This document shows positions 12,430 through 33,801 of a stretch of 64,000 nt of DNA, piece after piece. Numbering within the stretch: the first letter of the stretch is position 1; each line of letters opens with the position of its first letter. A model generated the notes under the pieces. It did no database searches. It was not told where the DNA came from and worked only from the letters and a program-made list of their open reading frames with translations. The stretch is taken from contig CALFWO010000010.1 in assembly GCA_937928045.1 (NCBI GenBank), positions 62,001 through 126,000 on the forward strand. The letters run 5' to 3'. Both the position numbers and the translations under genes were made by a program. This DNA comes from an uncultured Saprospiraceae bacterium (GTDB lineage Bacteria; Bacteroidota; Bacteroidia; Chitinophagales; Saprospiraceae).

Positions 12430-12476
12430 AAATTAAAAAGGTGTTTGAATGGTAAATTCAAACACCTTTTTAATTT
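12430..12476. terminator. Bidirectional terminator, 21-bp perfect stem
   Basis: Arms 12430-12450 and 12456-12476 are perfectly complementary (21 bp, loop GGTAA), with A-tracts on one side and T-tracts on the other, so it can act in both directions. It serves the LOG-family gene and the convergent porin gene. The stop codon of the porin gene (12470-12472) lies inside the right arm. Confidence 0.92.
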
Positions 12477-14758
12477 AATAATATCCAAGAAATTCCGAAA
12501 CGAATTACCCTAAAAGGAATAGGATAATTTGGTGTTCGATACCCGAATTGTACATCTTGTAGATTGTTTACGATTGGACTGGTAATATTTTGTGCACGAA
12601 CATAGAATCGGAATCCACCTCTTTTAATACTAACATATGGATCTAACTGCGGAAAGTATGTTAAATTATCATTTGAGTTATAAAATTGGCCCAGCAGTGG
12701 TTGATATCTTCTTGCTTGATAATCGGTATGAAAAATTCCTTCGGCGCCTAATCGAACAAGCATTTTTTCTTTAAATATTTTAGTTTCCAAATATAGATTG
12801 TGCTTTGAGAATAGAGTAGGCAAGGCAAAAATATCATTGTTACTGCTTTGGATCACTAAGGTGTTTTCCAAATGCATTATACCCAAGTTGATTGGCTGTT
12901 TGATGATCAATTGCGGGATGGCAAAAACATCTTGGTGCTGTTGAACCACTCCAATAGTATCGTGATAAATATAGTTGTCCAAAAGCTGGAAGTTAATGCC
13001 TAACGTTGTTCCTGTTCTGGCTACTTGAATAACCCCACCGATTTTAGTTTCAACGGTTTTCTGAAAGTCATTGTCCCACATTCTAACCGCACTGATAAAA
13101 AATCTATTCTGCATCACAGAAGGGGAGTACGCCTGAGTTAATGCGTGCAATCGAAGAGTTCCAATTTTTTTGGCAGATATATCTATGTTTCCATTCAAGT
13201 AAAAATCACCAGCATTATAACCGCTAATGAAAAATCCTCCCGTTGCATCTAGTCTGAATTTTTTGAAAAGCATTAAGTCCGCATTACCAAAAATGGAAAG
13301 GTTATTTGTTTTTAAGGAATCATTGATTTGGCTATATTTATTAAAACTATGTTTTATACCAGCTTTGAAAAAATCTCTTGGTTGTTGCGTTTTCCCAGTC
13401 CTTCTTTCCTTAAGACTTGTTGTACTTATGAAAAAGCTATTTTCAACTCCTGAGTGTGCAATTCGATATTGTAACCCTTGATTGTATACATACAAATTTT
13501 TGTAAAAACTAGTATCAGCATTCAAGTCAGCATATTTATAAAAGCCGCGGAATATATTTAATTCGTGACCCAAACTTATTTGACGCCTTCCTGGTATCAA
13601 TCTATTCGGATCATAATATCTAGCAGGTTTTTTGCGCTTTCTCTTTTTTATAGCCAAAGTGTCCGATGCAATTTTTAACGAATCGTTTGTAAGACTGTCA
13701 ATCGAAATGCTATCAACAAGGTTTATGTTTAAGGAGTCAGTCACTGATAGTGTATCAATGTTAATTGATCCTAAATTATTTAATGTAGAATCCAACGAGC
13801 TCCTGATATTTACAATGCTGTCATTAGCAATAGAGTCGAAAGAAGTATTCAAAGAATCCGCCGTTTCTAAAGGGAATTGATTCAGAATGGAAGTATCTTT
13901 CTTTGGTTTAGGAATCGGACTTCTCAAATGGAAATATTGTACAACGCCTCCGCTTCTCATTTGATATCTCGTAGTATCTTGAGACAACAAGACTGGAACC
14001 GTTTCTTCTTGAGAAGTATTTCCATCTCTTAATAATTCAGTATTAATGCCACCATTTTCTAAATGTAAAGAGGAATTGGAGGTAAGGGTAAAGAATGCTT
14101 GATATTTTCCTTTAGGATGATGATACCAAAACCCAGTATTTAGTGCATAGTTTCTGGCCAATTGATTTGGAAATACACCAAGGTGATTAATTCTATGATG
14201 GTGGATAGTAAAACTTAAACTCTTGCCGAATTCTTTGGCGAAAATAACTTTTAGATGTTGATCATCTTGAGATCTTCCTTGGCTATAAGTTGCATTTGTG
14301 TATGCACTTTTTAGTTTAAAGAACTTTAAGTCTTCTTTTTGAAAATAGTATTTATCAAAAATATTAAATCCAATATTAAGTCCATTCCTAATTTTTGATT
14401 CAAAAACCAAGGGAGTAAGGGGACTACCTAAATTCCCCAAATTGGCATGGGCAAAATCTCCATAGTAAGCCGGATCTGGCTGGGAAAAATCATTGCCTAA
14501 TAATGTGTCTTGATGATCAAGTATCAAGAAAGGATTGTCCAAATAAAAATATTGGGTGTCAAAAGTATCTGGCTTAATTGGCCGTCTGCCAAATAAATCG
14601 GCGCCTTCTCCAGTTCCGCTACTCGTTCCAGTATTTGCAGTAGTACCTGTTGGGCGGCCGGTTCCCACTCCAGGAGGTCTTCCTTGGCCACTTAGTTCCA
14701 CAGATAAACTGAGCAGAATCAAAACTGAAGAAAATATAATAAGTAATCGATACTTCAT
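12470..14758 (-). CDS. Putative porin, Bacteroidota type (Porin_10-like)
   Basis: This 762-residue outer-membrane beta-barrel protein begins with a signal peptide (hydrophobic residues 5-22, then ELSGQ). A Gly/Thr/Pro-rich low-complexity stretch follows (about 26-55). The sequence after that (DTFDTQYFYLDNPF, then NLGNLGSPLTPLVF) matches the Bacteroidota putative-porin family. The remainder alternates hydrophobic and polar residues, and ends with aromatic strands (GYRTPNYPIPFRVIRFGISW), as barrels do. Between about residues 295 and 390 an insertion rich in Asp, Ser, Leu and Asn (DSL, DSI repeats) ends in a basic KKRKRKKPARY stretch; it is probably an extracellular or periplasmic loop. The substrate is unknown. 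Confidence 0.75.
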   Translation of the reverse strand: MKYRLLIIFSSVLILLSLSVELSGQGRPPGVGTGRPTGTTANTGTSSGTGEGADLFGRRPIKPDTFDTQYFYLDNPFLILDHQDTLLGNDFSQPDPAYYGDFAHANLGNLGSPLTPLVFESKIRNGLNIGFNIFDKYYFQKEDLKFFKLKSAYTNATYSQGRSQDDQHLKVIFAKEFGKSLSFTIHHHRINHLGVFPNQLARNYALNTGFWYHHPKGKYQAFFTLTSNSSLHLENGGINTELLRDGNTSQEETVPVLLSQDTTRYQMRSGGVVQYFHLRSPIPKPKKDTSILNQFPLETADSLNTSFDSIANDSIVNIRSSLDSTLNNLGSINIDTLSVTDSLNINLVDSISIDSLTNDSLKIASDTLAIKKRKRKKPARYYDPNRLIPGRRQISLGHELNIFRGFYKYADLNADTSFYKNLYVYNQGLQYRIAHSGVENSFFISTTSLKERRTGKTQQPRDFFKAGIKHSFNKYSQINDSLKTNNLSIFGNADLMLFKKFRLDATGGFFISGYNAGDFYLNGNIDISAKKIGTLRLHALTQAYSPSVMQNRFFISAVRMWDNDFQKTVETKIGGVIQVARTGTTLGINFQLLDNYIYHDTIGVVQQHQDVFAIPQLIIKQPINLGIMHLENTLVIQSSNNDIFALPTLFSKHNLYLETKIFKEKMLVRLGAEGIFHTDYQARRYQPLLGQFYNSNDNLTYFPQLDPYVSIKRGGFRFYVRAQNITSPIVNNLQDVQFGYRTPNYPIPFRVIRFGISWILLN

Positions 14759-15511: not shown

Positions 15512-18500
15512 ATGTTGAATATAAAATTCAATTCTATGTTGTGGGCTTTTTGCCTTATAACATCTTTCAATCTTTTTAGTCAAGATTGTAGTCTTTCCTG
15601 TTCATCAACTGCCATAGATATTATTCTCGATTCGGACTGTGAACACACAGTAATTCTTGCCGATGTTTTGTCAAGTTCTATGGATTGCGATGGTCCTCTT
15701 ATCGTTGAACTCTTTAATGAAGTGGGACAACCAATTCCGAGTTCTCCAGTAATTGATGGTGGATACATTGGACAAATGGTAACTGCAACTATTACAGATA
15801 TTAGTTCAGGAAACGCTTGCGATGTACCATTGAATATTTTAGATAAACAGGTCCCAAAGCTTTCTTGCGGTGATTTATTTTATAGTTGTGAAGCAGCTTA
15901 TCCAAATATTGAATTACCCGAAGTGTTTGAAGTTTTGGTAGATGAGAGCATTATCTCAGATTGTCAAGAATTTGATATAGCAATAAGTAATATTGAGAAT
16001 AGTATTGCTGATCTAAATCTATATTTGGACTTTAATTTTTTAGGCTTAGCGAATGGATCAATCAATTTGATTTCTCCAAATGGAACAGAAGTCGAGTTAT
16101 TTCAATTTTCAGATATCTCATCTTGTTCTGGATCTGAATTGAAAATTAATTTTGTAGATCAGAGCATTCAAGGAATTCCAGCATTAGACTTTCAATGTCT
16201 ATCCGGTGGCTCGGATTTATCAAGATTTAATAGCACCGGTGATCTGTCAGATTTTAATGGAGAAAATGCCAACGGAACTTGGAAGCTGGAAGTTTGCGCT
16301 GTTGGCGCAGGTATAGTTAACTTGAATAATATTCAAATTGCGATTTCAGATGACAACAATATTTTTCCCCTGCCAATAGTCGGTTTTACTGGAATTAATC
16401 AAATAAACGAAACTACTTTTTCTTTAAATGATTTTGATGGATGTGGCCCAGCGGTACTTTCTTTCTTTGATATAGATGAGAATTTTGATTGTACTGCTTC
16501 TTTGAATAAGGAAGTCCTTAGGACTTGGAACGTTGTAGATCAATACGGTAATACTAATAGTTGTATTGAAACGATTTCTTTTGAGCGAAGAGCACCAGAT
16601 GAAATTTCATTGCCAGATACTTTTTCAGTTGCGAATGGAAATGCACTTAGCTGCGAACTTCAAATGCCGATAGCAAATGGCGTTATTCCTAATATTGGAT
16701 GGAATGCATTAGCCAACGGCAATCCATCTCCTGACAATGTATATTATGATGCTCCTAATGATGATATCGTAAAATGGTATGGTACAGGAAGGCCAGTGAT
16801 TGGTGGTTGCTATGACTTGAATTTCACCTATACAGACATTAAAATAAATTCTTGTTCTGAAGAAGATAGTCCTAACTGTTTTAAAGTCACTAGAACTTGG
16901 ATAGCAATTCACCCATGTACGAATGTACCTTTTGAATACGTTCAACAAATATTTGTTGCAGATGATAAAGCACCAGAAATAACTCCTATTGATGATGTAA
17001 CGATTTCCACCCAAGGGTTCTCTTGTGAGACGAATTGGGTAGTTCCTATTCCAAGCATAACAGATAATTGTTCGACTGAGTCGTCAATTACATATAATGT
17101 TTTTTCAGCAGAAGGTGTTGTTACTTATAACAGTTTTCTTAACCAGTATACCGTTAGGAATTTGCCTGTAGGGGTCCATTCAATTAGAGTGATTGCCGAG
17201 GATTGTTGCGGAAATGAATCTTCTGAATTTATTTCTGTCGAAGTAAGAGATCAGATTCTACCAAGCGTAGTATGTGAGACTTATGTAACTGCAAATTTAT
17301 CACAAGATGGTTTTGCAAAAGTATTTGCACAAACTTTCGATGAAGGTTCCCATGATGGATGTGGTCCTGTGTATTTTAAAGTTATTCGTATGGATAATTT
17401 ACAAGGTACGTTAGAAGGAACTGTAGCTGATCAAATCAGTAGTAATTGTGTTTCCGAAAACGGTGATGATGATCTAGTGACATCTGGCAATCAAATTTAT
17501 TTTGATGACTATGTTCATTTATGTTGTGATGATTTGGCTGGAGATGTACAAGTAGTGCTTCGGGTCTTTGACGTCAATCCTGGAACAGGACCTATCCATC
17601 CTGATCGAATGAAGGCTGGTGGTGATCTTTACAATCGATTTAATGATTGTATGCCACGTGTAACTGTAGAAGATAAACAAGCCCCGACAATTGTTTGTCC
17701 TGTGAATGTTACCCTAGAGTGTAACCAATGGTACCAAGATACTTCATTGACTGGAAGTCCAACAGCTTATGACAATTGTTCTCTAACAGGAATTACATTT
17801 GAGGATGATGTAAACTTGAATCAATGCCAAGTTGGAACCATTACAAGAACTTGGACTGCCACTGATCATACTGGTAGAACTGCAACTTGTGAGCAAATTA
17901 TAACCATGCAGGATAGTACTGATCCTGTAATTGAATATCCTACTGATCGGACAATTGATTGTGCAGATCTTCAAGATCTGTCGATTGCTGGTCAACCAAT
18001 TGTTGATGATAATTGTGCATTGATTGGTTGGAACTATTCTGATCAAATATTTCCAATTGAAGGAGGTTGTAAACTTAAAGTAATTCGGACATGGTCCGGA
18101 ATGGATCTTTGTGATTGGACAGCCTACACAGGAACTCAAACAATCATTGCTGAAGACAATCAGCCACCTGTCCTATTAAATGTTCCAGAAGACATTACAG
18201 TGGAATGTGATAATATTCCAAGTCCTTTTGATGTTGAATTCCAGGATGATTGTGGCAATTCAAGTACATTAAATTTTGAAGAAAATAGAATTGATGAGTT
18301 TTGTCCAAATGGATATACACTACAAAGAATTTGGACAGCGGTTGATGTTTGCGGAAATGAGGTTTCTGATGTACAATTGATAACTGTACAAGACAATACA
18401 GTTCCCGTATTTGATAGTATTCCTCAAGACATGAATTTGTCATGTTCCGCACAAGCTCCTTCTTTACTTTTATCGGCCCAAGACAATTGCGATCCAAACC

Positions 18501-21500
18501 CAACAGTTAGTGTAGTTGAAGATATTGTTCCTGGTGATTGCCCAAATAGATTTACTTTGGTTCGAACTTGGACGGTTGTAGATGCCTGTGGTAATTCAGA
18601 TATGATCTCTCAGAATTTAAGTTTTTCCGATGATGAGGCTCCTCAATTATTAAATGTGCCTGATGATATTACAATTAATTGTGGAGAAGACATTCCGATT
18701 GTTACAATTGTAACGGCTACAGATAATTGTGATACTAACTTGGAACCTATTCTGACGGAAATCGAAGGACCAGATTATTGTTCTGACGGAATTATTCTAA
18801 CAAGAATTTGGGAGGCCACTGATGCTTGTGGTAACTCTACTTCCGATACTCAAAAAATATTTTTATTTGACAATGATCCGCCAGTGTTTGATAATTTACC
18901 AGAGGATATAACTATTTCTTGTTCGGACGATTTGCCAGATTCAAAGTTGAATGCTACGGATGCATGTACGGAAGAAGTTGTTGTCAGTTTTAACATGGGA
19001 ATACAATTTTTAAACTGTGCTCAAAATCAAATATTAACTAGAACATGGACAGCAGAAGATGATTGCGGAAATATTGCAACGCATTCAATGACAATCACAA
19101 TCACTGATGATGAAGCTCCATTTATAGATGAAACATTGAATGATATTACTATTAGTTGTGATGCTCAAATTCCATCTTCTAGTGTAACAGTTCGAGATAA
19201 TTGTGATGGCAATCCAAGTGTAATGTTTATTGAAGAAGAAGTGCCTGGAGGATGTCCGAACGAAAAAATATTAAAGCGATCATGGACGCTATCTGATGCC
19301 TGTGATAATACGGAAACTTTAAATCAGTCTATCACAATTGTAGATGAGGAAAAACCAGTGTTTAGCTCAACGCCAGTGGATATTTCTGTAGAGTGTGATG
19401 ACATTCCTGCGGCGAATTCTTTAACAGCAATGGACAATTGCGATGGATTGATAACACCAATCTTTTCCGAAGTTCGAACTAATGGTTCTTGTATAGATAG
19501 CTATATGATTGTTAGAACTTGGTTCGCATCTGATGGTTGCGGAAATATGGAAACGATCATTCAAAATATAACGGTCACTGACACCCAAAGCCCAACGATT
19601 ACTGTAGGACCTAATTTGTTGTTTGCGAGTTGTGAAAACGTGCCAACACCTGGTACTGCAGTTGCAACTGACAATTGTGATATGTCATTGACGATTTCTT
19701 TTTCTGAAAGACAAATTGATAGCACCTGTCTAGATCTTTATCGGTTGGAAAGAACTTGGTCAACTTTTGACAATTGTGGAAACCAAGCAACATTTGTTCA
19801 AAACGTTATTGTGAGTGATGATGTGCCTCCAAGTTTAGTGGGCGTGCCTGAGGATTTAACAGTTGACTGCAACGCTATTCCTGCGCCGGCAACAGTCGAC
19901 GCAGTTGATAACTGTGATCCTGAAATTACGGTGAATTTTGAAGAAAATTTTGATGCTGGACTGTGCGAAGTACAAGGTATTTTAACAAGGATCTGGACTG
20001 CTGTTGATCGATGTGGAAATGTTACAACTGATTCTCAAGTCATAAATGTTGGTAATTCGCAACTGCCTGAATTCGATGGAGTACCTGCGAATATTAATGT
20101 TAGCTGCGATGACATTCCTGCGGTTGTTACGCCAACTGCTTTAGGAGCCTGCGGAACTATGACGACAATTACATTTAATGAACTTATAGTGGAAGATGAT
20201 TGTCGACATAATTATCAGATTCAAAGAACATGGAATGCTATTGATGATTGTGGAAATGAAAATTCAGCAACGCAATTAATTAATGTATCGGATGATGAAG
20301 ACCCTACGTTGTCAAATTTACCAAATGATGTTACAATAAGCTGTACGGATCAAATTCCTTTCATGGAACCCACAGTAACAGACAATTGTGACGCAGGTAT
20401 TGAGTTGGAATTTATGGAGAATGAAGAATCTGGTATATGCGAAGGAGAGCTTATCATTATAAGGACTTGGATCGCTGAAGATGACTGCGGAAATGTCGCT
20501 ATGCATTCTCAAAAGATTAGTATCTTGGACAATATACCACCGGTTTTTGAAATGATTCCTGATGATATCACAGTAAGTTGTGAAGATCAGGATATGAATT
20601 TTGGTTCACCAGAAATTTTAGACCTTTGTGACGAAGATGCAAGTTTTACTTTGCTAGAGGTAAGAGAAATAACTTGTCCAGGAACATTTATACTTACAAG
20701 AACTTGGACAGCGATGGATGATTGTGGTAATACTTCAACAGCTACACAAGAAGTAACGATTTTTGATGATGAACTTCCTGAATTGAGTGGAAGTCCTGCC
20801 GACATTACTGTAAGTTGCGAAGCTATTCCTACAGCTGAAATTCTTACTGCTGAAGACAACTGTGATGATAATCCAACGGTTGATTTTGTAGAGGTAAGAA
20901 TTGATGGTGACTGTGCAGGAAATTATATCTTGGAAAGAACTTGGATTGCTACAGATCATTGCGGAAATTCTGTTGCTGAAGTCCAAACCATAACTGTAAT
21001 GGATCTAATAGAACCTGAGTTTGTAAATTTCCCTTCTGACTTTGAAGTAAGTTGTATTGATGATCCACTAATTGATAATGTGCAAATTATTGCAAATGAT
21101 AATTGTGATAATAATGTAAATATCAATATTAATGAAACAGTAGAGGATTCTATTTGTCTCAATCAATTAATTATAGTCAGAGTATATACGATTACAGATC
21201 ATTGTGGAAATTCAATTGAACGAACTTTGAGGATAGCGGTAAATGATGATCTTCCTCCGGCATTCCCACTTGTACAGGAAGATATTTCTGTAAGTTGTGA
21301 GAACGTACCAGATCCGACCTTAATTGTTGCAACTGATAATTGTGTCGGACCGGTAGACTTAGTTTTTACCGAAAGTGTAGTTGATAGTGCATGTATTGGG
21401 AATCTAACATTGTTAAGAAGATGGATCGCCACAGATGCATGTGGGAATGTGGATTCAGTTAATCAGAGAATTCAAGTCTTTGATAATACCCCGCCAGTTT

Positions 21501-23758
21501 TATCAGAAGTAGAACCTATCATAGAAATATCATGTAGTGATCCTATTCCTCCAGCACCAAATGTAACTGCTACTGACAATTGCGGACTTCAAGGCGGTGT
21601 CAATTTTTTCGATGATGTTGTTGAAGAAATTTGTCCAGGATATACCTATAAAATTAGAAGAACTTGGATCGTCGGTGATCAATGTTCTAACTCAGCAGAT
21701 GTTTCTCAGGTTGTAAGTATTTCGGATAGTGAAGCCCCAATTTTTACTTCAATAATTAATGATGTCAGCGTTAGTTGTGATGAAATACCTGGTGTAGAAA
21801 CGATTACTTTTGAGGATAATTGCGATCCTAATCCTACTATTACTTTTTCAGATGAACGCTTGGATGGACAATGTTCTAATGAATATACAATTAAGAGAAC
21901 CATTACGATTGCAGACGTTTGTGGGAATGCCAATGATCATCTACAAACGCTAACCGTTTTTGACAATACAGTTCCTTTAATTGATTGTCCTGAAGACATT
22001 ACTGTCGCAATAGATAATACTGTAGATCCCGCCGGTGATCCTTTGGTCTGCGAAATTTTTGTAAATGTTCCATTGCCTGTGGTAAGTGATAATTGTAATT
22101 CACAACCGGTTATTACCAATAGTTTTATTAGTTCTCCTGATGGCAATGCTTCTGGTTTTTACCCGATTGGAACTACAACTGTTTCTTTTACTGTAAATGA
22201 TTTGTGTGGCAATTCAAGTATCTGCTTTGTAGATATTACGGTATTGGATCAAGTCGCACCATCTATTGCCTGTTCGGGAGTTACGCTCGTTACCATAGAT
22301 CCAGCAACTGAGAATATGGGTGTTTTAGTGGTTGATAGTTTCTTGTCGATTGCTAAAGATTGCCAAGACTTTGAAATTCTTTTCTCCCCTCAGATGTCGT
22401 CATTTATTAATTTTGATTGTGACGATGTTGGTGATACGATTAGAGTGGACGCAATTGCTCGAGACATCAGTGGTAATGTCACTGGATGTTTTAACGATGT
22501 AAGAGTAACTGATCCTCTAGGGGTTTGTACCATGGCAGTAGCTGGAATAGCAGGTATGATAACTACGGAAGACTTATTGCCTGTAGGTAATACATTGATT
22601 AATGTAAATAATCAACCTATTTTACAGACTAATGATGATGGAGATTATTTATTGGACGAAGTGGCTCAAGGTTTAGACTATACCTTGATCCCGGAACTAA
22701 ATCATATTGATAGAGCAAAAATTACCACTTTGGATTTGATACGTTTGGGTAGACATTTGATTGGTCTAGAACCTTTGGATTCGCCTTACAAATTAATCGC
22801 TGCCGATGTTGATTATTCAAATGCAATTGACGTCTTTGATCTTATTGAATTGCAGAAATTAATTGTCCATAATATTGAGGAATTTTCTCAAGGAAATGCA
22901 TGGAGGTTTATTGATGAAGAACATTCTTTTTCAGATGAAACAAATCCATTCATTGATTCTTTCAACGAATTTATTAAAATTGAAAATTATTCGGAATTTG
23001 TTTCAGATCAAGATTTTGTGGCAGTTCAACTTGGTAATTTAAATGAAGGCGAAGACATCTATGTAAATACTGCAGAAAAAGCTATTTGGAACTGGCAGGT
23101 ACCTTCTATCAAGTTGAAGGAAGACAGAGAAATCGTACTTCCGATTTATGCAGAATCTATCCCAACTTGCGATGGTCTTCAATTAGAATGGTCATTTGAT
23201 GATATGAAAATTGAGGTTATAGATATTCTACCTGGTCAGTTCGAACCGGTTTTCAATATACAAAAGAATAAATTGCTATTAAGTGCTATAATGAATAGTC
23301 AGAAAGCTGTTAATGCGCATCAACCATTGTTTACATTAAGTTTAAAGGTTCTTAGTGACTGTAGTTCTGATGAAATATTTAGTTCTACGCAAAAACACTT
23401 ATCTACTTATGCTGTGGTAAATAACCATGTCTCTCATACTATAGAATTGAATGTAGAACATTTGGATGGAACCTACGTACAATTAAACAAGGATCTTCCA
23501 GTCCTATTTTCCAATCGACCAAATCCTTTCACGGATCAAACAACCTTAAGGTTTAATTTGCTTTCCGATGAAGATTTAACGATTCAGATTGTTGATGTTG
23601 CTGGCAAAGCGCTTTACCGGCAATCAATGTTTTTAAAAGCTGGCTATCAAGAGGTAGTTATTAGGCGAGATCAATTAAATGCAGAGGGTGTTTTATTCTG
23701 TCAATTGATTACGACTAAGGGAACAGTCACGCAAAAGCTTTTATTAGTAAGTCAGTAA
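15512..23758 (+). CDS. Giant secreted HYR-like repeat protein with type IX sorting domain
   Basis: This 2748-residue protein is predicted to be exported by Sec and displayed or secreted by type IX secretion. In order: signal peptide (about 1-24); a proprotein-convertase P-domain-like module (about 150-278, ending NGTWKLEVCAVG); several degenerate repeats; then 16 units of about 79 residues (nt 18170-21976), each with the frame P.DITVSC, A.DNCD, GxC, RTWTA.D.CGN and four conserved Cys. A more canonical HYR unit follows (LIDCPEDITVA to FTVNDLCGNSS). After it come a carboxypeptidase-regulatory-like domain (about 2340-2395), a dockerin-like pair of helices and Ca loops (about 2400-2458), a cohesin-like beta domain (about 2520-2625), and the type IX type A sorting domain (2668-2748, from NRPNPF). 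I infer an adhesin or matrix protein. Confidence 0.88.
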   Translation: MLNIKFNSMLWAFCLITSFNLFSQDCSLSCSSTAIDIILDSDCEHTVILADVLSSSMDCDGPLIVELFNEVGQPIPSSPVIDGGYIGQMVTATITDISSGNACDVPLNILDKQVPKLSCGDLFYSCEAAYPNIELPEVFEVLVDESIISDCQEFDIAISNIENSIADLNLYLDFNFLGLANGSINLISPNGTEVELFQFSDISSCSGSELKINFVDQSIQGIPALDFQCLSGGSDLSRFNSTGDLSDFNGENANGTWKLEVCAVGAGIVNLNNIQIAISDDNNIFPLPIVGFTGINQINETTFSLNDFDGCGPAVLSFFDIDENFDCTASLNKEVLRTWNVVDQYGNTNSCIETISFERRAPDEISLPDTFSVANGNALSCELQMPIANGVIPNIGWNALANGNPSPDNVYYDAPNDDIVKWYGTGRPVIGGCYDLNFTYTDIKINSCSEEDSPNCFKVTRTWIAIHPCTNVPFEYVQQIFVADDKAPEITPIDDVTISTQGFSCETNWVVPIPSITDNCSTESSITYNVFSAEGVVTYNSFLNQYTVRNLPVGVHSIRVIAEDCCGNESSEFISVEVRDQILPSVVCETYVTANLSQDGFAKVFAQTFDEGSHDGCGPVYFKVIRMDNLQGTLEGTVADQISSNCVSENGDDDLVTSGNQIYFDDYVHLCCDDLAGDVQVVLRVFDVNPGTGPIHPDRMKAGGDLYNRFNDCMPRVTVEDKQAPTIVCPVNVTLECNQWYQDTSLTGSPTAYDNCSLTGITFEDDVNLNQCQVGTITRTWTATDHTGRTATCEQIITMQDSTDPVIEYPTDRTIDCADLQDLSIAGQPIVDDNCALIGWNYSDQIFPIEGGCKLKVIRTWSGMDLCDWTAYTGTQTIIAEDNQPPVLLNVPEDITVECDNIPSPFDVEFQDDCGNSSTLNFEENRIDEFCPNGYTLQRIWTAVDVCGNEVSDVQLITVQDNTVPVFDSIPQDMNLSCSAQAPSLLLSAQDNCDPNPTVSVVEDIVPGDCPNRFTLVRTWTVVDACGNSDMISQNLSFSDDEAPQLLNVPDDITINCGEDIPIVTIVTATDNCDTNLEPILTEIEGPDYCSDGIILTRIWEATDACGNSTSDTQKIFLFDNDPPVFDNLPEDITISCSDDLPDSKLNATDACTEEVVVSFNMGIQFLNCAQNQILTRTWTAEDDCGNIATHSMTITITDDEAPFIDETLNDITISCDAQIPSSSVTVRDNCDGNPSVMFIEEEVPGGCPNEKILKRSWTLSDACDNTETLNQSITIVDEEKPVFSSTPVDISVECDDIPAANSLTAMDNCDGLITPIFSEVRTNGSCIDSYMIVRTWFASDGCGNMETIIQNITVTDTQSPTITVGPNLLFASCENVPTPGTAVATDNCDMSLTISFSERQIDSTCLDLYRLERTWSTFDNCGNQATFVQNVIVSDDVPPSLVGVPEDLTVDCNAIPAPATVDAVDNCDPEITVNFEENFDAGLCEVQGILTRIWTAVDRCGNVTTDSQVINVGNSQLPEFDGVPANINVSCDDIPAVVTPTALGACGTMTTITFNELIVEDDCRHNYQIQRTWNAIDDCGNENSATQLINVSDDEDPTLSNLPNDVTISCTDQIPFMEPTVTDNCDAGIELEFMENEESGICEGELIIIRTWIAEDDCGNVAMHSQKISILDNIPPVFEMIPDDITVSCEDQDMNFGSPEILDLCDEDASFTLLEVREITCPGTFILTRTWTAMDDCGNTSTATQEVTIFDDELPELSGSPADITVSCEAIPTAEILTAEDNCDDNPTVDFVEVRIDGDCAGNYILERTWIATDHCGNSVAEVQTITVMDLIEPEFVNFPSDFEVSCIDDPLIDNVQIIANDNCDNNVNININETVEDSICLNQLIIVRVYTITDHCGNSIERTLRIAVNDDLPPAFPLVQEDISVSCENVPDPTLIVATDNCVGPVDLVFTESVVDSACIGNLTLLRRWIATDACGNVDSVNQRIQVFDNTPPVLSEVEPIIEISCSDPIPPAPNVTATDNCGLQGGVNFFDDVVEEICPGYTYKIRRTWIVGDQCSNSADVSQVVSISDSEAPIFTSIINDVSVSCDEIPGVETITFEDNCDPNPTITFSDERLDGQCSNEYTIKRTITIADVCGNANDHLQTLTVFDNTVPLIDCPEDITVAIDNTVDPAGDPLVCEIFVNVPLPVVSDNCNSQPVITNSFISSPDGNASGFYPIGTTTVSFTVNDLCGNSSICFVDITVLDQVAPSIACSGVTLVTIDPATENMGVLVVDSFLSIAKDCQDFEILFSPQMSSFINFDCDDVGDTIRVDAIARDISGNVTGCFNDVRVTDPLGVCTMAVAGIAGMITTEDLLPVGNTLINVNNQPILQTNDDGDYLLDEVAQGLDYTLIPELNHIDRAKITTLDLIRLGRHLIGLEPLDSPYKLIAADVDYSNAIDVFDLIELQKLIVHNIEEFSQGNAWRFIDEEHSFSDETNPFIDSFNEFIKIENYSEFVSDQDFVAVQLGNLNEGEDIYVNTAEKAIWNWQVPSIKLKEDREIVLPIYAESIPTCDGLQLEWSFDDMKIEVIDILPGQFEPVFNIQKNKLLLSAIMNSQKAVNAHQPLFTLSLKVLSDCSSDEIFSSTQKHLSTYAVVNNHVSHTIELNVEHLDGTYVQLNKDLPVLFSNRPNPFTDQTTLRFNLLSDEDLTIQIVDVAGKALYRQSMFLKAGYQEVVIRRDQLNAEGVLFCQLITTKGTVTQKLLLVSQ
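18170..21976 (+). repeat. Sixteen tandem HYR-like protein repeats (about 79 residues each)
   Basis: Sixteen consecutive units align across the protein, each ending in a D.xPP/AP hinge. Conserved points are SC near position 13, DNCD near 29, a Cys near 45 and CGN near 63, giving four Cys per unit. Repeats are clearly diverged at DNA level; I saw no long identical stretches, so they are old duplications or are kept apart by selection. Confidence 0.88.
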
Positions 23759-23901: not shown

Positions 23902-26475
23902 ATGAAAAATTTAATAATTTGCATAAGTATTTTAATATCGGCTAGCCTTGTAGCTCAAGATCAACTCTCTTTAGAATATTACTTTCCATCTCAAAAATTC
24001 AATCCAGAAATACCTACTCCTCAAGAGGTAATCGGATTTGTTCCGGGAGAGTGGCATGTTAGTCATGACCGACTATTGTTGTACATGAAAACATTGGCTA
24101 AGTCTTCACCAAGAATGTCCATGCAATCTTTTGCAAAGTCTCATGAAGGAAGAGAACTAATGGTGTTAATTGTTTCTTCTGAAGAAAATCAGAGTAATAT
24201 TGATATGCTGAAAAAGGAAAGGCTTGAATTTTTAAATAATGGGAATTCAAAACTAAAAGATAAAATCCCAGCCGTCTTATATCAAGGATATTCTGTTCAT
24301 GGAAATGAATCAAGTGGGGCAAATGCTGCATTGCTTTATGCTTATTATTTGGCTGCCGCACAAGGGCCAGAAATTGATGAATTATTAAAAAATCAAATCA
24401 TACTTTTAGATCCTTGTTACAACCCCGATGGGCTACACAGATTTTCTACTTGGGCAAATATGCACAAAAGTAAATTTCCATCAGGGGATGAAGTGAATCG
24501 CGAATTTAATGAACCATGGCCCAGAGGCCGAACGAATCATTACTGGTTTGATCTAAATAGAGATTGGTTGTTGTTGGTACATCCGGAGTCCCGTGGAAGA
24601 ATTGCGATGTTTCATGAATGGCGACCAAATGTTCTAACTGATCATCATGAAATGGGCTCTAACAGCAGTTTCTTTTTTCAGCCTGGCATTCCTTCTCGTG
24701 TGAATCCCTTGACACCGAGTAAAAACCAAGAGTTAACTGGAGAGATTGCTAAATTCCATGCAGCAGAATTGGATAAAATTGGTTCTCAATATTATTCTCA
24801 AGAATCATTTGATGATTTTTATTACGGCAAAGGTTCTACTTATCCAGATGTAAATGGATGTATTGGAATTTTATTCGAACAAGCTTCATCAAGAGGGCAT
24901 TATCGCAATACCGCTAATGGAATTTTAACTTTCCCTTTTACGGTTAGGAATCAATTGGTCACTTCACTTTCAACTTTGAAGGCTGGATCAGCGCTTAGGA
25001 ACGAATTGTTGAATTACCAACAACAATTTTTTCAAGACGCTCAAAAGGCTAGCAAAGAAAGTACAATAAAAGCTTATGTTGTCGGCTCTTTAAATGACCC
25101 TGCAAGATTGAATGAATTTAAAAGTATATTGAGACAACATCAGATAGAATTGTATTATCCAGAAAATGGTATTTCCATTGATGGGAAAAAATTTGATCGT
25201 GATCAAGCAATGGTGATACCTACTAACCAAAGGCAATATAAATTGCTAAAGGCCATTTTTGAAACACAAACTACGTTTACAGATTCTCTGTTCTATGATG
25301 TTTCTGCATGGAATATTGCTATGGCTCATGACTTGGATTACATTGAATTAAATGACCGTGCTTTTGCGCAGCTTAAATTGAAGAATGGAATTCGTTTAGA
25401 TAAAAACGAAAGTAATTTTAAAGAATCTGATTATGGTTACTTAGTTGATTGGAGAAATTACAAAGCATCTTCAGTGTTGCATCAATTGCAGCGTAATGGA
25501 CTTTTGGTACGTTTAGCCACTGACGGTGCAACAATAAAAGTCGACGGTGGTCAAATTGAATTTCCCGCAGGAAGTCTTTTTGTGCCAACTCAAAACCAAT
25601 CATTGGGAGGAGGTGAAATTTATCAATTGCTTAAGAATTTATCAAAGAATGGAACTAAAGTGTATGCTGTAAATTCAGGATTAACACCAGATGGTATTGA
25701 TCTTGGAAGCCCTAATTTCCCAGCGCTGAAAGCTGCTAAAGTGGCGATGATAATTGGAGACGGAATTTCAGGCTATGATGCCGGTGAGGTTTGGCACATG
25801 TTTGATACCAAACTGGAAATGCCATTGACACTGGTTGAAGGAAAAAACTTTGGAAGATTAAACTTAGAAAATTATACGGCACTAATCGTTCCTGATGGTA
25901 ATCCTAAGTATCTAAGTAAGAATCAAATTGCCAAAATTAAAAGTTGGGTTCAAAAGGGTGGAACTATCATCGGTATTCAGAATGGAGTAAGTTGGTTGAA
26001 TAATAACAATTTGGCAAATCTTAAATTAAAGGAGAAGACTGCGAATAAGAATGAAAGTAAGATCCGTCCGTATAACAAAGCAAGATCAGATTCTGGATCG
26101 AAATATATTGGTGGCGCAATCTTTAATAGTAATATCGATTTAAGCCATCCACTTTGTTTTGGTTATAGTAATGAAAGTCTTCCCTTGTTTCATCAAGGAA
26201 CCATGTTTTATGAATATCCCAAAAGTCCGTACGCTGCTCCAGTTCGATACGCTAGTAGTCCTTTGTTAGCGGGATATATTTCCAAAAATAATTTAACAAC
26301 AATCTCAAACAGTTCTGCGGTAGTTTGTTCAAGGATTGGGCAAGGCAAGTCAATTTCCTTTGCCTTCAATCCCGTCTTTAGAGGATACTGGAGAGGGACG
26401 GAACGGCTTTTTGTGAATGCCATATTTTTTGGAAATAAAATTAATGGAAGCACTTGCGAAGCAGTAGGAGAATAG
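23902..26475 (+). CDS. Secreted M14-family zinc carboxypeptidase-like protein
   Basis: This 857-residue protein has a signal peptide (MKNLIICISILISASLVAQ). The N-terminal half is an M14 metallocarboxypeptidase domain. The zinc ligands HGNE are H133 and E136. DPCYNPDG and FDLNRDW match substrate-binding segments (the DLNR motif), and the third ligand lies in DHHEMGS (H248/H249). The catalytic Glu candidate is in LFEQASSRGH. The C-terminal half (about 540-800) includes a Rossmann or GATase-like part (KVAMIIGDGISGYDAGEVWHMFD, then LIVPDGNPKYLSKNQIAKIKSWV). This layout is common for large periplasmic or surface peptidases of Bacteroidota. No type IX sorting tail is visible. Start is the ATG directly before the signal peptide. 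Confidence 0.86.
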   Translation: MKNLIICISILISASLVAQDQLSLEYYFPSQKFNPEIPTPQEVIGFVPGEWHVSHDRLLLYMKTLAKSSPRMSMQSFAKSHEGRELMVLIVSSEENQSNIDMLKKERLEFLNNGNSKLKDKIPAVLYQGYSVHGNESSGANAALLYAYYLAAAQGPEIDELLKNQIILLDPCYNPDGLHRFSTWANMHKSKFPSGDEVNREFNEPWPRGRTNHYWFDLNRDWLLLVHPESRGRIAMFHEWRPNVLTDHHEMGSNSSFFFQPGIPSRVNPLTPSKNQELTGEIAKFHAAELDKIGSQYYSQESFDDFYYGKGSTYPDVNGCIGILFEQASSRGHYRNTANGILTFPFTVRNQLVTSLSTLKAGSALRNELLNYQQQFFQDAQKASKESTIKAYVVGSLNDPARLNEFKSILRQHQIELYYPENGISIDGKKFDRDQAMVIPTNQRQYKLLKAIFETQTTFTDSLFYDVSAWNIAMAHDLDYIELNDRAFAQLKLKNGIRLDKNESNFKESDYGYLVDWRNYKASSVLHQLQRNGLLVRLATDGATIKVDGGQIEFPAGSLFVPTQNQSLGGGEIYQLLKNLSKNGTKVYAVNSGLTPDGIDLGSPNFPALKAAKVAMIIGDGISGYDAGEVWHMFDTKLEMPLTLVEGKNFGRLNLENYTALIVPDGNPKYLSKNQIAKIKSWVQKGGTIIGIQNGVSWLNNNNLANLKLKEKTANKNESKIRPYNKARSDSGSKYIGGAIFNSNIDLSHPLCFGYSNESLPLFHQGTMFYEYPKSPYAAPVRYASSPLLAGYISKNNLTTISNSSAVVCSRIGQGKSISFAFNPVFRGYWRGTERLFVNAIFFGNKINGSTCEAVGE

Positions 26476-28644: not shown

Positions 28645-31600
28645 TTAGTTATTAAGTATAACTAATTTTTCTGTCCAGTATTCATCATTAGATTGAATGA
28701 GCAAGGTATAAACTCCGGAAGAAAAGCCAGAAGTATTAATTACTTCTTGAAGTTCTAGTCCCTTCCAGTTTTTCAATTCGAAAACATTTTGACCAAGCAC
28801 ATCAAAAAGGATAATATTTATATTCGCTGACTGAGTCAAACTAATATTTACATTAAAGAATTCACGAGCTGGGTTCGGGAATATTGAAATATTTTCTAAA
28901 GACAGTATATTGTTTGTGCTGACAGATTCCAATACTTCGAAAGTCTGTTGTAATTCACAACCGTTGACGTCAGTTATTACTAGTAAATAAGTGCCTGCAG
29001 CAAGATCCTGTAAATCTTCTAGAGTCGAAATAATATTTCCATTTATACTCCAAGAAAAAACAAATGGTCCAGTTCCATTTGGAGTAATATTAATGAATCC
29101 ATCATCTGCCGACGAAGCGTTTCCAATTTCATCAGTTGTTACAGAAAGTTCTAAAGATTCTGCAACGGTAAAACTATCAATAGTTTCGCATCCGTTGTCA
29201 TCTGTCGCGCTAATGAAATAATCTCCTGGACAAACTTGTGAAAAATTACTTGGAAGATTAGTTGCTATTTGATATGGAGGTGTTCCTCCAGCTATTGTGA
29301 AAGCTACTTGCCCGTCACAAGTTCCAAAACAAGCATCAAATACGTTTACCGCAAGTAGAAGAGGATCTGTATTAGCTACGTCTGGTGAAGTATATATGAA
29401 TTCACATCCATTGCCATCGGTAATTGTACAGCTATAAATACCAGGGCATAATCCAGTTCCTCCATTTGATCCATCCAAGGTATCAAGACTCCAATCATAG
29501 GTAAATGGAGCAGTACCTGTAACATTCAAAAATATTGAACCATTATCACAAGGTAGGTTACAGTCCACATTCCAATTCATTAAATCTGCGCTGACCGCAA
29601 TTTCTGAGTATTCAACAATTGTACTGGTTGCTTCCGCGACACAACCATTGGTATCTACAACAGTAATTGTATAACTTCCCGCACAAAGATCGCTTAACGT
29701 ATCAGTGCTAGAAGCTCCGTTACTCCAGTTAATGGTATAGGGCGATGTGCCGCCAGTGATCGAAGCGGTTAGTTCTCCATCACAAATTTCGAAGCAAGTT
29801 GATACGTTTTGATTTAAACTAACGACTAGATCGCAGCCAGTTAAATTAACAAGTACACAATCAGATTCTTGACAACCGGAATCAGAAGTCACAGTTACAC
29901 AATATGTTCCTGCACTCAAGCTATCCAAAGTTTGACTGATTTCACCATTGTTCCAAACAAAGGAGAAGTTTCCTGTACTACCTGTTGGAAAAGCGCTTGC
30001 CGTTCCATCCGCAGCACCTGCAGTAGTTTCATCTGAACTTGACATAAATAAACTTATAGGAGCTGGTTCAGTAATCACAACAACTATACTATCCGTGCAT
30101 GTCCCATCTGTTGCTGTAACAACATAGGATCCAGCACACAAATCTTGTCTTTGAAAAGCAATTGTGTTATCCGGCCAAGTAAAAGTATAGTTTGGAGAAG
30201 CAAGTTCAACCAAACCATCGCATCCACCATTACAGCTAGTAGAACCGATGTTTACAATGCTAATTGCTAAATCAGGGCCATCCAAAATTTCAAAAGTCTG
30301 AACAGCATCGCATCCTGCTGTGTCCGAAACAGTAACTGTATAAACCCCAGCTTGTAAATTAGTTTCTACATTGGTAGTATTTGAACTAGAAGACCATGAG
30401 TATGTGTAAGGCGGCGTTCCTCCGCTTGTAGTCGCAGTAGCAGATCCATTATTTTCTCCAGCACAACTTGGTTGATCGAGTTGTAAGGATAGTGTCAACT
30501 GGCAACCGGGAGGACCCACAACTATACAAGTGTCTACAGAACAATTATTAATATCAGTAATTGTAACACAATAAGTTCCTTCAATTAAATTTGAAAGTGA
30601 ATCAGTCGACGCACCATTATTCCAACTATAGGAGTAAGGTGAAGTTCCTCCTGTTGCTAAGGTTGTTACAGTCCCATCACTGCCACCAACTGTAGTTACT
30701 GGAGTTGAATTAATATTTGGATCTATACCAGATGGAGCGCCAACAGTGGAGGTAATATTGAAAACACATCCTTTAGCATCTGTTACTTCAATGTCATATA
30801 TCCCAGGACAAAGACTGTTCAACGAATTTGGTACAATGAAATATGGTTGGGTTCCTCCGAAAAGGTCCAGACTAATAGAACCATCACAAGTATTGGAGCA
30901 AGATGAATTTACAACTGTAGCAGTTCCGGTTAGCACTTCTGGAGAAGTTATTTCAAAAGATAAAACTTCTGAACATCCGATCATATCGGTTACAGTACAA
31001 AATACAATACCTGCTGATAAACCAGTTTCAGTACTTCCGTTTCCACCAGAAGACCAACTGTACATGTATGGCATTGTTCCGTTTGAAGCCTGAACTGCTG
31101 CCGTTCCATCCGTGTCTCCACTACAGCTTACAGAAGTTCCAGAGATTGTCGTAGTAAGATTGCAGTTTGCAACATTAACTACAACTGAACTGGAATCAAT
31201 ACAGCCATTTAGATTATTTGTAACTGTTACAGAATAACTTCCGGGAACAAGACCTACTATTGTGTCCGTGGTTCCAGCGTTGCTCCAAAGAAATGAGTGG
31301 TCTGTTGCTAGTCCATTAACAGTTACAAAAGCAGTTCCATCGTTAGCTCCATTTGAAGTCTCGTTAGTTGAAGAGATGGAAGCTATGATAGGAGCATTTT
31401 CTGTTACATTATATACTCCGATTGATTCACATCCATTTCCATCAGTAACAGTAAGGGCATAAATACCTGCACATAAATTATCAATAAAATTATTGGATGT
31501 AGGAATGTTTTCCCAGTTGTAATTATAGTTACCATCACCGCCTGTTACATTCACGAAAATTTGACCATTACATTCCCCAAAGCATCCAGCTTCAGTAATA

Positions 31601-33801
31601 ATTTCAGAAATAACGATTTCTTGTGTCTCACCAATAGCAAATGTTTCAACAGTTTGACATCCGTTTTCATCTGACGCGGTAACTGTATAAGTTCCTGCGC
31701 AAAGATCAGAAATATAAGAACTATCGGACTGATTAGACCACAAGTAATTGATATTACCAGAACCTCCTGTTGAATTTATTAATATGGACCCATCGCATTC
31801 ACCAAAACATGTTGCATCTATGATGGTCTCAGCTAACAATAAGCTATCCGTGCCCATAATTTCTTCTATATATTCAGTTGAACAACCATTCGAATCTGTA
31901 ATTGTTGCTGTGTAAACACCAGGACAAGCGATCAGAACATTTGAAGTATTTGTTGGATCAATATCCCAATTGTAAATATAACTTCCAGTTCCGCCTGAAG
32001 GAGACAAAGCTATTGTTCCATCACAAAAACCTGAGCAATTCTCATTTGTAACAATTCCAGTTACAACTATCCCAGAAGGAATTGCAATATCTACTGAAAT
32101 TATAGTATCACATAAATTAAAATCTGTTATTGTACAAAAGTAAGCTCCTGCACAAAGGCCAGATATATTTGGATTTGTCTCCATGTTAGACCAACTATAA
32201 GTGTATGGAGGTGTACCTCCTGATACCAATAGGTCTACAGATCCGTTACAAGTATCAACGCAACTCGGATTAGTAGGAGTTGCTACAATTGTAAAATCTG
32301 TTGGTTCTGAAATAGAAATAGAACCTAAACCTTCACAGCCATTCATGTCAGTCACAGTTACAGCGTATGTTCCTGCGGCAAGATCGGTAGGATTTTGAAT
32401 ACTATCCAAAGCGTTGTCGTCCCAATCAAAGCTATAAGGCATCGTACCACCAACTACTGTTAACATGATTGAACCAGATGAATCGCCTGCACAATTTAAA
32501 TTCATTGGCGATAAAGTAAGCCCCAAAGATGTATTAGCAGTTACCAAAACAGTATCTATGTCAAAGCACCCTGTATTGACATCGGTTACCATTAGGGTGT
32601 AAGTTCCAGCAGTATCAACAATTGGCATTAAAGTTTGGTCACCACTAACTATATTACCGTTAGAAGTGGACCATAAGTAAGTTATCTGTGGTCCAGAATC
32701 CGAGTTTGATCCGTTCAATGCGACTTGTGCAGTTCCACAATCCAAAGCCATGTCAGGTCCAGCATTTACAAAAGGAGGTGTTGAATTGTCAAGAACATTA
32801 AAGAAAACATCATCGATACACCCCTTACTATCTGCTACTGTAATTGAATAGGTTCCTGCGGTAAGACCAGGTTCTGTTGGTAGGGTATTCCCAGAAGGCC
32901 AATTATAACTGTATGGTGATGTACCACCAAATGCACCTAAGGTTGCTTCTCCGGTAGAATTATTGCAATCGATATCCGTAATAGAAATAACCTGTAAATC
33001 TAATTCTTGCGGTTCTGTTATTGTAACTGTTCCAACTACAGTATCCAAAGCAGTGTCCGTCACAGTAACTGTAAAAGTTCCAGCAGTTAACAACATAGCT
33101 GTTGGGGCGGACTCTCCATTTGACCAATTATAAGTATATCCTGGGGTTCCACCAGATGGAACCGCTGTAGCGATGCCATCATTGCCTTGAAAACAAGAAA
33201 CATTCTGATCAAGATTAACCGTAATACCCAAAGCTGGATTACCCATTAAAGTTCCAGTTGCTGTGGTGGTAACGATAAAGTCGTCTTGATTACCATTTGA
33301 ATCACTTGCAATATTTCCAGCGGCGTATAAAGTTATAGGGGTACCATTAGCTCCAGTAGGAGCGACCCAGTCGAAATTCCAAACTACATCGTTTGACGCT
33401 GAAAAAGGTTGAGCAGGATTGTGTTCCACATATTCTCTTCCATTTGTATTTGTATCTGTGATTGGATTAGTTCCTGATACAATTAGGTCTCCAATGTTAT
33501 TATCATTATTATCTAAAACCACTGCTTGGAATCCAGCCAAATTAGCCAGCCCATTTGGGTTGGAAACTGTCGCCGAAAGTTGATAGGTTTGGCCTCCGAC
33601 TATTGAAGAAGGAAAATTCTGAATAGTTATTCCTCCATCAAATCCTAATGGGTTTGAACCGGTGTGGCAATCAGAGCACAATCCATCACCTGGAGCTCCT
33701 GATCTTCCAATAGGTGGATTCGAAGAAAAAGAGATAAATAAAGTGGCGAAGAGTACGGCACAAAAAATCAATTTGATTGATGAAATCTTTGAATTTGTCA
33801 T
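28645..33801 (-). CDS. Giant SprB-repeat surface protein with CxxCH motif and type IX sorting domain
   Basis: This 1718-residue protein is a likely type IX secretion cargo. It has a signal peptide (to about residue 27) and then CSDCH at 42-46, a CxxCH motif. A beta-sandwich domain follows (about 50-190) that resembles the choice-of-anchor/Reelin-like domains often found behind such a motif in Bacteroidota. From about 193 to 1630 I count some 18 SprB-type repeats of about 75 residues (nt about 33225-28900). Each has a CxGxCDGxI-like start, GGTPPYTYxWSN, LxAGTYxVTVTDxxGC and an acidic end. One unit is interrupted by a PKD-like segment. The C-terminus (about 1640-1718) is a type IX type A sorting domain with FPNPA and a GVYTLLIQS-like strand. 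SprB itself is the mobile gliding adhesin of Flavobacterium, and this shares its repeat type only. Confidence 0.87.
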   Translation of the reverse strand: MTNSKISSIKLIFCAVLFATLFISFSSNPPIGRSGAPGDGLCSDCHTGSNPLGFDGGITIQNFPSSIVGGQTYQLSATVSNPNGLANLAGFQAVVLDNNDNNIGDLIVSGTNPITDTNTNGREYVEHNPAQPFSASNDVVWNFDWVAPTGANGTPITLYAAGNIASDSNGNQDDFIVTTTATGTLMGNPALGITVNLDQNVSCFQGNDGIATAVPSGGTPGYTYNWSNGESAPTAMLLTAGTFTVTVTDTALDTVVGTVTITEPQELDLQVISITDIDCNNSTGEATLGAFGGTSPYSYNWPSGNTLPTEPGLTAGTYSITVADSKGCIDDVFFNVLDNSTPPFVNAGPDMALDCGTAQVALNGSNSDSGPQITYLWSTSNGNIVSGDQTLMPIVDTAGTYTLMVTDVNTGCFDIDTVLVTANTSLGLTLSPMNLNCAGDSSGSIMLTVVGGTMPYSFDWDDNALDSIQNPTDLAAGTYAVTVTDMNGCEGLGSISISEPTDFTIVATPTNPSCVDTCNGSVDLLVSGGTPPYTYSWSNMETNPNISGLCAGAYFCTITDFNLCDTIISVDIAIPSGIVVTGIVTNENCSGFCDGTIALSPSGGTGSYIYNWDIDPTNTSNVLIACPGVYTATITDSNGCSTEYIEEIMGTDSLLLAETIIDATCFGECDGSILINSTGGSGNINYLWSNQSDSSYISDLCAGTYTVTASDENGCQTVETFAIGETQEIVISEIITEAGCFGECNGQIFVNVTGGDGNYNYNWENIPTSNNFIDNLCAGIYALTVTDGNGCESIGVYNVTENAPIIASISSTNETSNGANDGTAFVTVNGLATDHSFLWSNAGTTDTIVGLVPGSYSVTVTNNLNGCIDSSSVVVNVANCNLTTTISGTSVSCSGDTDGTAAVQASNGTMPYMYSWSSGGNGSTETGLSAGIVFCTVTDMIGCSEVLSFEITSPEVLTGTATVVNSSCSNTCDGSISLDLFGGTQPYFIVPNSLNSLCPGIYDIEVTDAKGCVFNITSTVGAPSGIDPNINSTPVTTVGGSDGTVTTLATGGTSPYSYSWNNGASTDSLSNLIEGTYCVTITDINNCSVDTCIVVGPPGCQLTLSLQLDQPSCAGENNGSATATTSGGTPPYTYSWSSSSNTTNVETNLQAGVYTVTVSDTAGCDAVQTFEILDGPDLAISIVNIGSTSCNGGCDGLVELASPNYTFTWPDNTIAFQRQDLCAGSYVVTATDGTCTDSIVVVITEPAPISLFMSSSDETTAGAADGTASAFPTGSTGNFSFVWNNGEISQTLDSLSAGTYCVTVTSDSGCQESDCVLVNLTGCDLVVSLNQNVSTCFEICDGELTASITGGTSPYTINWSNGASSTDTLSDLCAGSYTITVVDTNGCVAEATSTIVEYSEIAVSADLMNWNVDCNLPCDNGSIFLNVTGTAPFTYDWSLDTLDGSNGGTGLCPGIYSCTITDGNGCEFIYTSPDVANTDPLLLAVNVFDACFGTCDGQVAFTIAGGTPPYQIATNLPSNFSQVCPGDYFISATDDNGCETIDSFTVAESLELSVTTDEIGNASSADDGFINITPNGTGPFVFSWSINGNIISTLEDLQDLAAGTYLLVITDVNGCELQQTFEVLESVSTNNILSLENISIFPNPAREFFNVNISLTQSANINIILFDVLGQNVFELKNWKGLELQEVINTSGFSSGVYTLLIQSNDEYWTEKLVILNN
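28900..33225 (-). repeat. About 18 tandem SprB-type protein repeats
   Basis: Units of about 75 residues recur with the pattern C...C(D/N)G, GGTxPYxYxW, L(C)AGTYxVTVTDxxGC. Many have two extra Cys (a CxGxC pair and an LCAG Cys), others lack them, so two sub-types alternate irregularly. DNA identity between units looks low by eye. Confidence 0.8.

Follow-up and report, generated by a model that had tools for sequence, protein, structure and literature searches.

Saprospiraceae are a large group of filament- and floc-associated bacteria. In DNA from an uncultured member of this family we analysed a 64,000-nucleotide stretch (contig CALFWO010000010.1, positions 62,001 to 126,000; hereafter the window) in which one open reading frame, P0001, stands out. 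A sequence-only reading had described its product as a 2748-residue surface protein that combines a P-domain, 16 four-Cys HYR-like repeats with about 64 Cys, a dockerin-like segment (about residues 2400-2458), a cohesin-like domain (about residues 2520-2625) and a type IX sorting module. It had taken the four Cys of each repeat to suggest two disulphides per unit and a stiff, protease-resistant fibre. By analogy with cellulosome partners, it had suggested that such chains could self-associate into a surface matrix, and it had seen in the protein a candidate for an undescribed structural system. The locus therefore raises two questions: whether these modules are what they seem, and what the dockerin of such a protein would bind.

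Module layout and export of P0001

The modules identified in P0001 are collected in Table 1. They agree with the sequence-only reading in the length of the ORF and the series of modules; the repeat count is exact, and the boundaries proposed for the dockerin-like and cohesin-like segments were good. The P-domain is weak, falling below the Pfam cut-off (18.9 bits vs 21). An ortholog of 2773 aa is encoded in a same-genus genome (G001:C397), with 47% identity across 2735 positions.

Table 1. Features of P0001 (window coordinates) and of the scaffold locus in the source genome
Feature	P0001 residues	Position	Strand	Evidence
P0001, T9SS surface protein ORF, 2748 aa	1-2748	15512..23758	+	ORF uninterrupted over 2748 codons; 2773-aa ortholog
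Probable Sec signal peptide	1-24	15512..15583	+	By eye from sequence
P-domain (proprotein convertase type), weak	179-262	16046..16297	+	Pfam P_proprotein, E 0.0016
16 HYR_4C repeats, 64 Cys	~889-2153	18176..21970	+	Pfam PF23237, Cys spacing, ortholog
X domain, first part (transthyretin-like, CarboxypepD_reg-like)	2346-2395	22547..22696	+	AF2 pLDDT 95.7; VIA; CarboxypepD_reg matches
Dockerin (helices 2406-2416, 2425-2431, 2441-2452)	~2396-2455	22697..22876	+	Family profile, AF2 helices, Foldseek
Dockerin loop 1, degenerate, NHIDRAKITTLD		22700..22735	+	Positions 1, 3, 5, 12 = N, I, R, D
Dockerin loop 2, canonical F-hand Ca loop, DVDYSNAIDVFD		22805..22840	+	Positions 1, 3, 5, 12 = D, D, S, D
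X domain, second part (SWRF segment to GDVN motif)	2456-2512	22877..23047	+	Model strands 119-123, 143-145, 157-161; VIA
Cohesin	2525-2648	23084..23455	+	VIA, profile A5
T9SS type A C-terminal sorting domain	2670-2744	23519..23743	+	TIGR04183
Scaffold locus, G000 contig C11: multi-cohesin/SprB/CHU_C protein, single-cohesin T9SS protein, PorP/SprF, XDoc protein without clear CTD		L031:8153-15046, L031:15013-15804, L031:7193-8149, L031:3341-6778	all -	

The sorting domain scored 30.4 bits against NCBIfam TIGR04183, above the cut-off of 23, and 22.8 bits against the Pfam profile, slightly under the cut-off of 27. The T9SS sortase PorU is encoded in the source genome (C10:54232-57576, 1160 bits vs a cut-off of 420), so that both marks of a T9SS type A substrate, a sorting domain over cut-off and PorU in the genome, are found for P0001. 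The PorU gene and the window share a contig, on which PorU is found some 4.4 kb before the window begins. Elsewhere in the window are a Porin_10 protein (12470-14758), an M14 carboxypeptidase-like ORF (23902-26475) and, close to the P0001 gene, a T9SS type A giant of 1718 aa with 12 SprB repeats (28645-33801, minus strand).

The layout nearest to that of P0001 belongs to a paralog in the source genome (L038:1442-7543, plus strand), which carries a P-domain (E 1.4e-8), HYR and HYR_4C domains and an extra cohesin ahead of the tail, that is, the series of X-dockerin (XDoc), cohesin and C-terminal sorting domain (CTD).

The four-Cys repeat array

All 16 repeats belong to the Pfam family HYR_4C (PF23237), which is named for its four Cys; P0001 matched it in 16 stretches with E 1.8e-74 and 246 bits, vs a cut-off of 27. 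Exactly 64 Cys lie within residues 899-2137 and form 16 quartets. The usual spacing inside a quartet is 15-17-16, the following quartet begins 31 residues on, and the period is 79-81. The ortholog has the same repeat spacing and retains 64 of the 64 array Cys vs 44% of the remaining array residues, well beyond chance, which indicates that the number of repeats and the Cys pattern are under strong constraint. Given the predicted extracytoplasmic location, the array Cys probably form disulphides. The array is long and very regular, and shows no essential difference from HYR_4C; none of the other XDoc proteins sampled had this regular spacing three times in a row. Since the repeats belong to a described family, the idea of an undescribed structural system applies to the tail and its assembly system and does not extend to the array.

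A dockerin with one canonical calcium loop

A single-sequence Pfam search of P0001 returned no dockerin at E<1. A profile built from 53 XDoc modules (A4) and compared with PDB sequences matched PDB dockerins (best dockerin E 5.6e-7), and the predicted dockerin is firmly identified by this family profile. The AF2 model of the X-dockerin alone (pLDDT 95.7, pTM 0.89) has three helices (model residues 61-71, 80-86 and 96-107) placed as in a dockerin, and profile and model together predict the two loop-helix F-hand repeats and middle helix of this fold. Foldseek aligned the model with 8x39_A over 53 columns at 1.1 A (E 0.18) and with 4dh2_D over 57 columns at 2.0 A (E 0.26), both non-significant. 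The model gave no Foldseek match at E<=0.001 and no dockerin row in VIA, which we did not count against a dockerin.

Of the two Ca loops expected of such a module, one is canonical and the other degenerate. Loop 2 (DVDYSNAIDVFD) is canonical, and its ligand pattern is retained in 114 of 117 XDoc modules. Loop 1 (NHIDRAKITTLD) lacks ligands at positions 3 and 5; we therefore class the P0001 module as dockerin-like with one canonical site, instead of a dockerin with two canonical Ca loops. Across the 117 modules, loop 1 has D or N at positions 1 and 3 together with D at position 12 in 87, and Leu at position 5 in 84. Among the 53 aligned modules D12 of both loops is invariant, and P0001 is the only one without G at loop 1 position 7 and without D of the third motif, GDVN, which in P0001 reads GNLN. 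Both features are retained in the ortholog (NRDVRAGITTLD and GDLN), so the change is a recent one in the P0001 lineage. One good predicted Ca site is left, and with loop 1 degenerate and the third motif altered, binding by this copy may be weak or limited to a single mode.

The dockerin appears to be inserted in the X domain

In the type II X-dockerins of cellulosomes (C. thermocellum ScaA/CipB and A. cellulolyticus ScaA; PDB 4u3s, 4wi0), X occupies residues 1-98 and is followed by the dockerin at residues 99-164, with Ca bound in both loops (PMC5141474). The X module there resembles domain II of avian carboxypeptidase D (1qmu), and the dockerin consists of two F-hand loops and a middle helix (PMC5141474). 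The tail of P0001 has both folds together, and profile A4 aligned over X plus dockerin with the A. cellulolyticus ScaA X-dockerin, weakly (4wi0 and 4u3s, E 0.064 and 0.1). It differs in the apparent position of the dockerin within X, in an atypical loop 1 and in belonging to a T9SS surface protein that also has a cohesin.

The placement of the dockerin comes from the predicted structure. In VIA, the X-dockerin model aligned with carboxypeptidase transthyretin-like domains over 76-82 residues at 1.8-2.0 A, spanning model residues 1-163, with Z 7.1-7.7, values below 8 that are not decisive alone; for the X part, the alignment with 1qmu covered 76 residues (1.9 A, Z 7.3). Because only about 50 residues lie ahead of the dockerin while the alignment spans residues 1-163, the strands after the dockerin, with their conserved SWRF and KxGDVN motifs, would complete the sandwich. 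XDoc family members match CarboxypepD_reg at positions 1-54 of 82, and when the two halves of X were joined in silico the match still ended at position 54 of 82, so that the insertion is seen in the model only. In that model X is not a complete domain N-terminal to the dockerin, as it is in cellulosomal X-dockerins; the dockerin appears to be inserted inside a transthyretin-like X domain.

The tail cohesin

The single-sequence Pfam match to cohesin (residues 2527-2642) was sub-threshold (E 0.032, 14.9 vs 24.1 bits). A profile of tail cohesins (A5) matched mostly cohesins in the PDB, with a best E of 6.4e-8. When the tail of the window protein was modelled by AF2 with 57 relatives (pLDDT 91.3, pTM 0.82), VIA aligned its cohesin domain with type I cohesins (1anu: Z 12.0, 119 residues, 2.5 A), and the 21 top-ranked rows were all cohesins. 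The predicted domain has the jelly-roll beta sandwich of the cohesin fold, and its identity is firm by fold, with the family profile pointing the same way. Whole-tail Foldseek results were dominated by cohesin and Ig folds, which is why the X-dockerin was modelled separately.

The tail recurs across Saprospiraceae

Nine further ORFs of the source genome carry the tail, behind very different N-terminal parts (haem peroxidase, sortilin/BNR, trypsin-like protease, PKD and HYR). When GTDB species genomes were scanned, 79 tail loci were found, nearly all in Saprospiraceae or Saprospirales. XDoc occurs in 34 of 37 Saprospiraceae genomes, in up to 24 copies, vs 3 of 24 genomes from other families of the order. 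The three Saprospiraceae genomes without XDoc have no cohesin matches either; genome-wide cohesin counts include same-chain cohesins, and this co-absence is therefore weak evidence for pairing. HYR domains are present in 24 of 45 sampled XDoc proteins, and other cargo includes haem peroxidase, a sortilin/BNR protein and a C-type lectin. No glycoside hydrolase was found at E 0.001 among the examined source-genome XDoc proteins or the 45 sampled relatives.

The order of the tail is nearly fixed. The sampled loci hold 117 XDoc modules; leaving out 5 cut by contig ends and 7 that are terminal, 93 of 105 complete XDoc ORFs read XDoc-cohesin-CTD, with a median linker of 14 residues. Such adjacency would be expected if the cohesin bound the dockerin of its own chain, in which case XDoc-cohesin would have no role in assembly and would simply join the cargo to the sorting domain as a compact stalk. 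Two further observations are in keeping with a closed pair of this kind: the pTM of 0.82 over four domains, one number from which confident relative placement may be inferred, and a locus outside the T9SS context (L126) in which XDoc-cohesin precedes a different C-terminal region, as though the pair travels together. A closed pair leaves unexplained, however, the seven modules with which the chain ends, in proteins that stop 3-4 residues past XDoc and have no cohesin of their own. Such free XDoc proteins would need a partner in trans.

One of the seven is a trypsin-like protease of the source genome (L044:1984-3930, plus strand), which ends 4 residues past XDoc, without cohesin or T9SS domain. 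Similar XDoc-terminal proteins occur in L079 (two in tandem), L112, L122, L125 and L127.

Multi-cohesin scaffolds are linked to XDoc genes

A candidate partner is encoded in the source genome. The scaffold protein of locus L031, 2298 aa long, combines 4 cohesins with 20 SprB repeats and carries a CHU_C T9SS signal; with 63.4 bits for cohesin in Pfam vs a cut-off of 24.1, it is a multi-cohesin scaffoldin. Downstream of its gene is PorP/SprF; upstream is the gene of a single-cohesin protein of 264 aa that also has a T9SS tail, and an XDoc protein is encoded close by. The same gene set is found in another Saprospiraceae MAG (L073), and both loci are adjoined by a response regulator and an NADH:flavin oxidoreductase-like ORF. 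Scaffold proteins of this T9SS type, with SprB repeats and 2-10 cohesins each, are found in genomes with XDoc; the largest number, 10, is in L133 (Pfam E 5.6e-85).

XDoc genes are concentrated around these scaffolds. With one scaffold region taken per genome, an XDoc gene is present in 14 of 21 regions, some of those without one being short contigs, vs 0.89 expected from XDoc density; the P value of about 1e-15 is indicative, as the regions were chosen from a ranked match list partly with XDoc positions already known. These regions hold 19 XDoc genes in total, 19 of 19 on the strand of the scaffold. Plain clustering of T9SS genes was considered as the source of the linkage and rejected, because none of 20 control regions around other CHU_C (type B T9SS) proteins of these genomes had an XDoc gene nearby (Fisher P 4e-6, likewise indicative). 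The P0001 gene itself is not adjacent to the scaffold, being on contig C10 and the scaffold on C11.

Scaffolds with 2-10 cohesins and no XDoc, lying beside XDoc genes, are also left unexplained by a closed pair within each chain, and we regard that arrangement as unlikely. Head-to-tail association, in which the dockerin of one chain enters the tail cohesin of the next and copies of one protein build up chains or a matrix, was the pairing suggested by the sequence-only reading. Surface assembly is a reasonable part of that proposal, and both modules are real and on one chain. Tail cohesins also form a subfamily of their own, scoring lower than scaffold cohesins with the scaffold-cohesin profile. 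Head-to-tail binding is nevertheless one of three possible pairings; it has no need of linked scaffold genes, its specificity is not supported, and loop 1 is degenerate in P0001 itself. We consider it rather less probable still, docking to a scaffold being favoured by the 14 of 21 regions with XDoc vs none of 20 controls. Least probable, and by our judgement quite improbable, is that the modules have lost dockerin-cohesin function and are Ig-like, Ca-stabilised spacers in a repetitive adhesin: Leu at loop 1 position 5 does make a full two-Ca dockerin exceptional in the family, and the P0001 copy is degenerate further, but a relic of this kind fits poorly with the conservation of the loop 2 ligands and of D12 in both loops, and with the strong linkage to multi-cohesin genes.

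Proposed assembly

Docking in trans to a multi-cohesin scaffold, within an adhesin-type surface assembly in which the same-chain cohesin acts as extender or cap, is the reading we favour, and we put its chances at somewhat better than even. We infer from the modules that P0001 would be exported by the T9SS to the cell surface with its P-domain/HYR head N-terminal and its docking unit C-terminal. Between them, the 16 four-Cys Ig-like repeats would form a shaft that disulphides probably lock. The docking unit would comprise the X-dockerin, with the dockerin apparently nested in the transthyretin-like domain, a linker of about 14 residues, the cohesin and the T9SS signal. Another locus of the genome encodes the multi-cohesin SprB-repeat scaffold whose cohesins would most likely receive this dockerin, with Ca2+, and many HYR-type proteins could in this way be arrayed on one surface scaffold. 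The same-chain cohesin might receive the X-dockerin of a further protein, by which the array would be extended or branched; alternatively, it might cap the dockerin of its own chain for as long as no partner is at hand.

A broader formulation is put forward more tentatively, with a likelihood a little short of even: that a non-enzymatic cohesin-dockerin system exists throughout Saprospiraceae, in which disulphide-rich HYR adhesins attach, each through an X-nested dockerin, to T9SS-exported SprB scaffolds bearing 2-10 cohesins, and the cohesin of each adhesin lets the surface array branch or grow.

If this is true, cohesin-dockerin, among the strongest non-covalent protein pairs and familiar from complexes that digest cellulose, would also be the general connector of T9SS-exported surface proteins in Saprospiraceae. 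The tail, of which a genome can hold as many as 24 copies, would acquire a function, and the multi-protein architecture of T9SS adhesins would be defined. Orthogonal X-dockerin/cohesin pairs of a new kind, unusual in their nested dockerin, would also become available.

Relation to known cohesin-dockerin systems

The arrangement resembles cellulosomes in that tandem true cohesins are carried on a non-catalytic secreted protein (L031, L133) and many proteins bear dockerins. It differs in cargo, where HYR arrays, haem peroxidase, a sortilin/BNR protein and a C-type lectin stand in place of glycoside hydrolases, and in scaffold, which carries SprB repeats and a CHU_C T9SS signal and, in the three examined, no carbohydrate-binding module. 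A cellulosome in the strict sense was rejected, since dockerin-bearing glycoside hydrolases were not found in the XDoc proteins sampled; the assembly would be scaffoldin-like, yet not a cellulosome by content.

Peer et al. are said to have described non-cellulosomal cohesin/dockerin proteins in bacteria and archaea in 2009. For Ca. Stygibacter (Cloacimonadota), a cellulosome-like complex with a T9SS-CTD scaffold has been proposed (PMC8542988). In the portion of that report consulted, the complex, like the present system, is known from sequence alone; its cargo is enzymatic (GH18, GH57, peptidases), its scaffold has CBM2/CBM3, and neither a nested X-dockerin nor an XDoc-cohesin tail is described (PMC8542988). 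Some proteins of ANME archaea have one dockerin and several cohesins per chain, a further case of cohesin and dockerin outside cellulose degradation; T9SS, HYR cargo and an X-dockerin tail are not described in the corresponding portion of that source (PMC9012536).

Our literature search returned nothing relevant linking Saprospiraceae to dockerins and nothing linking HYR domains to T9SS. Cohesins, dockerins, X-dockerins, their non-cellulosomal versions and the proposed Cloacimonadota T9SS-CTD scaffold are already known. As far as the literature searched shows, the new elements are the Saprospiraceae-wide XDoc-cohesin-CTD tail, the HYR proteins that it carries as cargo, the linkage of this tail to SprB-type scaffolds and a dockerin that is probably nested.

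Variant loci and a second dockerin-like class

Several loci depart from the common tail. On the apparently non-T9SS MAG contig of L126 (8995-17092), XDoc-cohesin is accompanied by several single-cohesin ORFs close together, and one XDoc/cohesin gene looks frameshifted. In L111:8984-17856, four XDoc proteins, each about 730 aa long, are encoded one after another, with tail cohesins that are weak or undetected, and L120:4725-10165 holds two proteins that each have XDoc-cohesin plus a second XDoc ahead of the T9SS domain. Two XDoc loci (L053, L107) are in a MAG labelled Thermoanaerobaculia; their sequences look Saprospiraceae-like and possibly come from misbinned contigs.

The source genome also encodes a second dockerin-like class (L039:2267-4894, L040:2738-5497, L041:3291-6032, L042:3291-6257 and L046:3705-6122). 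It reads CVWPGDxNxD... and has two Ca loops that look good, with some 45 residues from one to the other. A cohesin-like stretch and a T9SS tail come after it, and in L041 and L046 there is an additional N-terminal cohesin.
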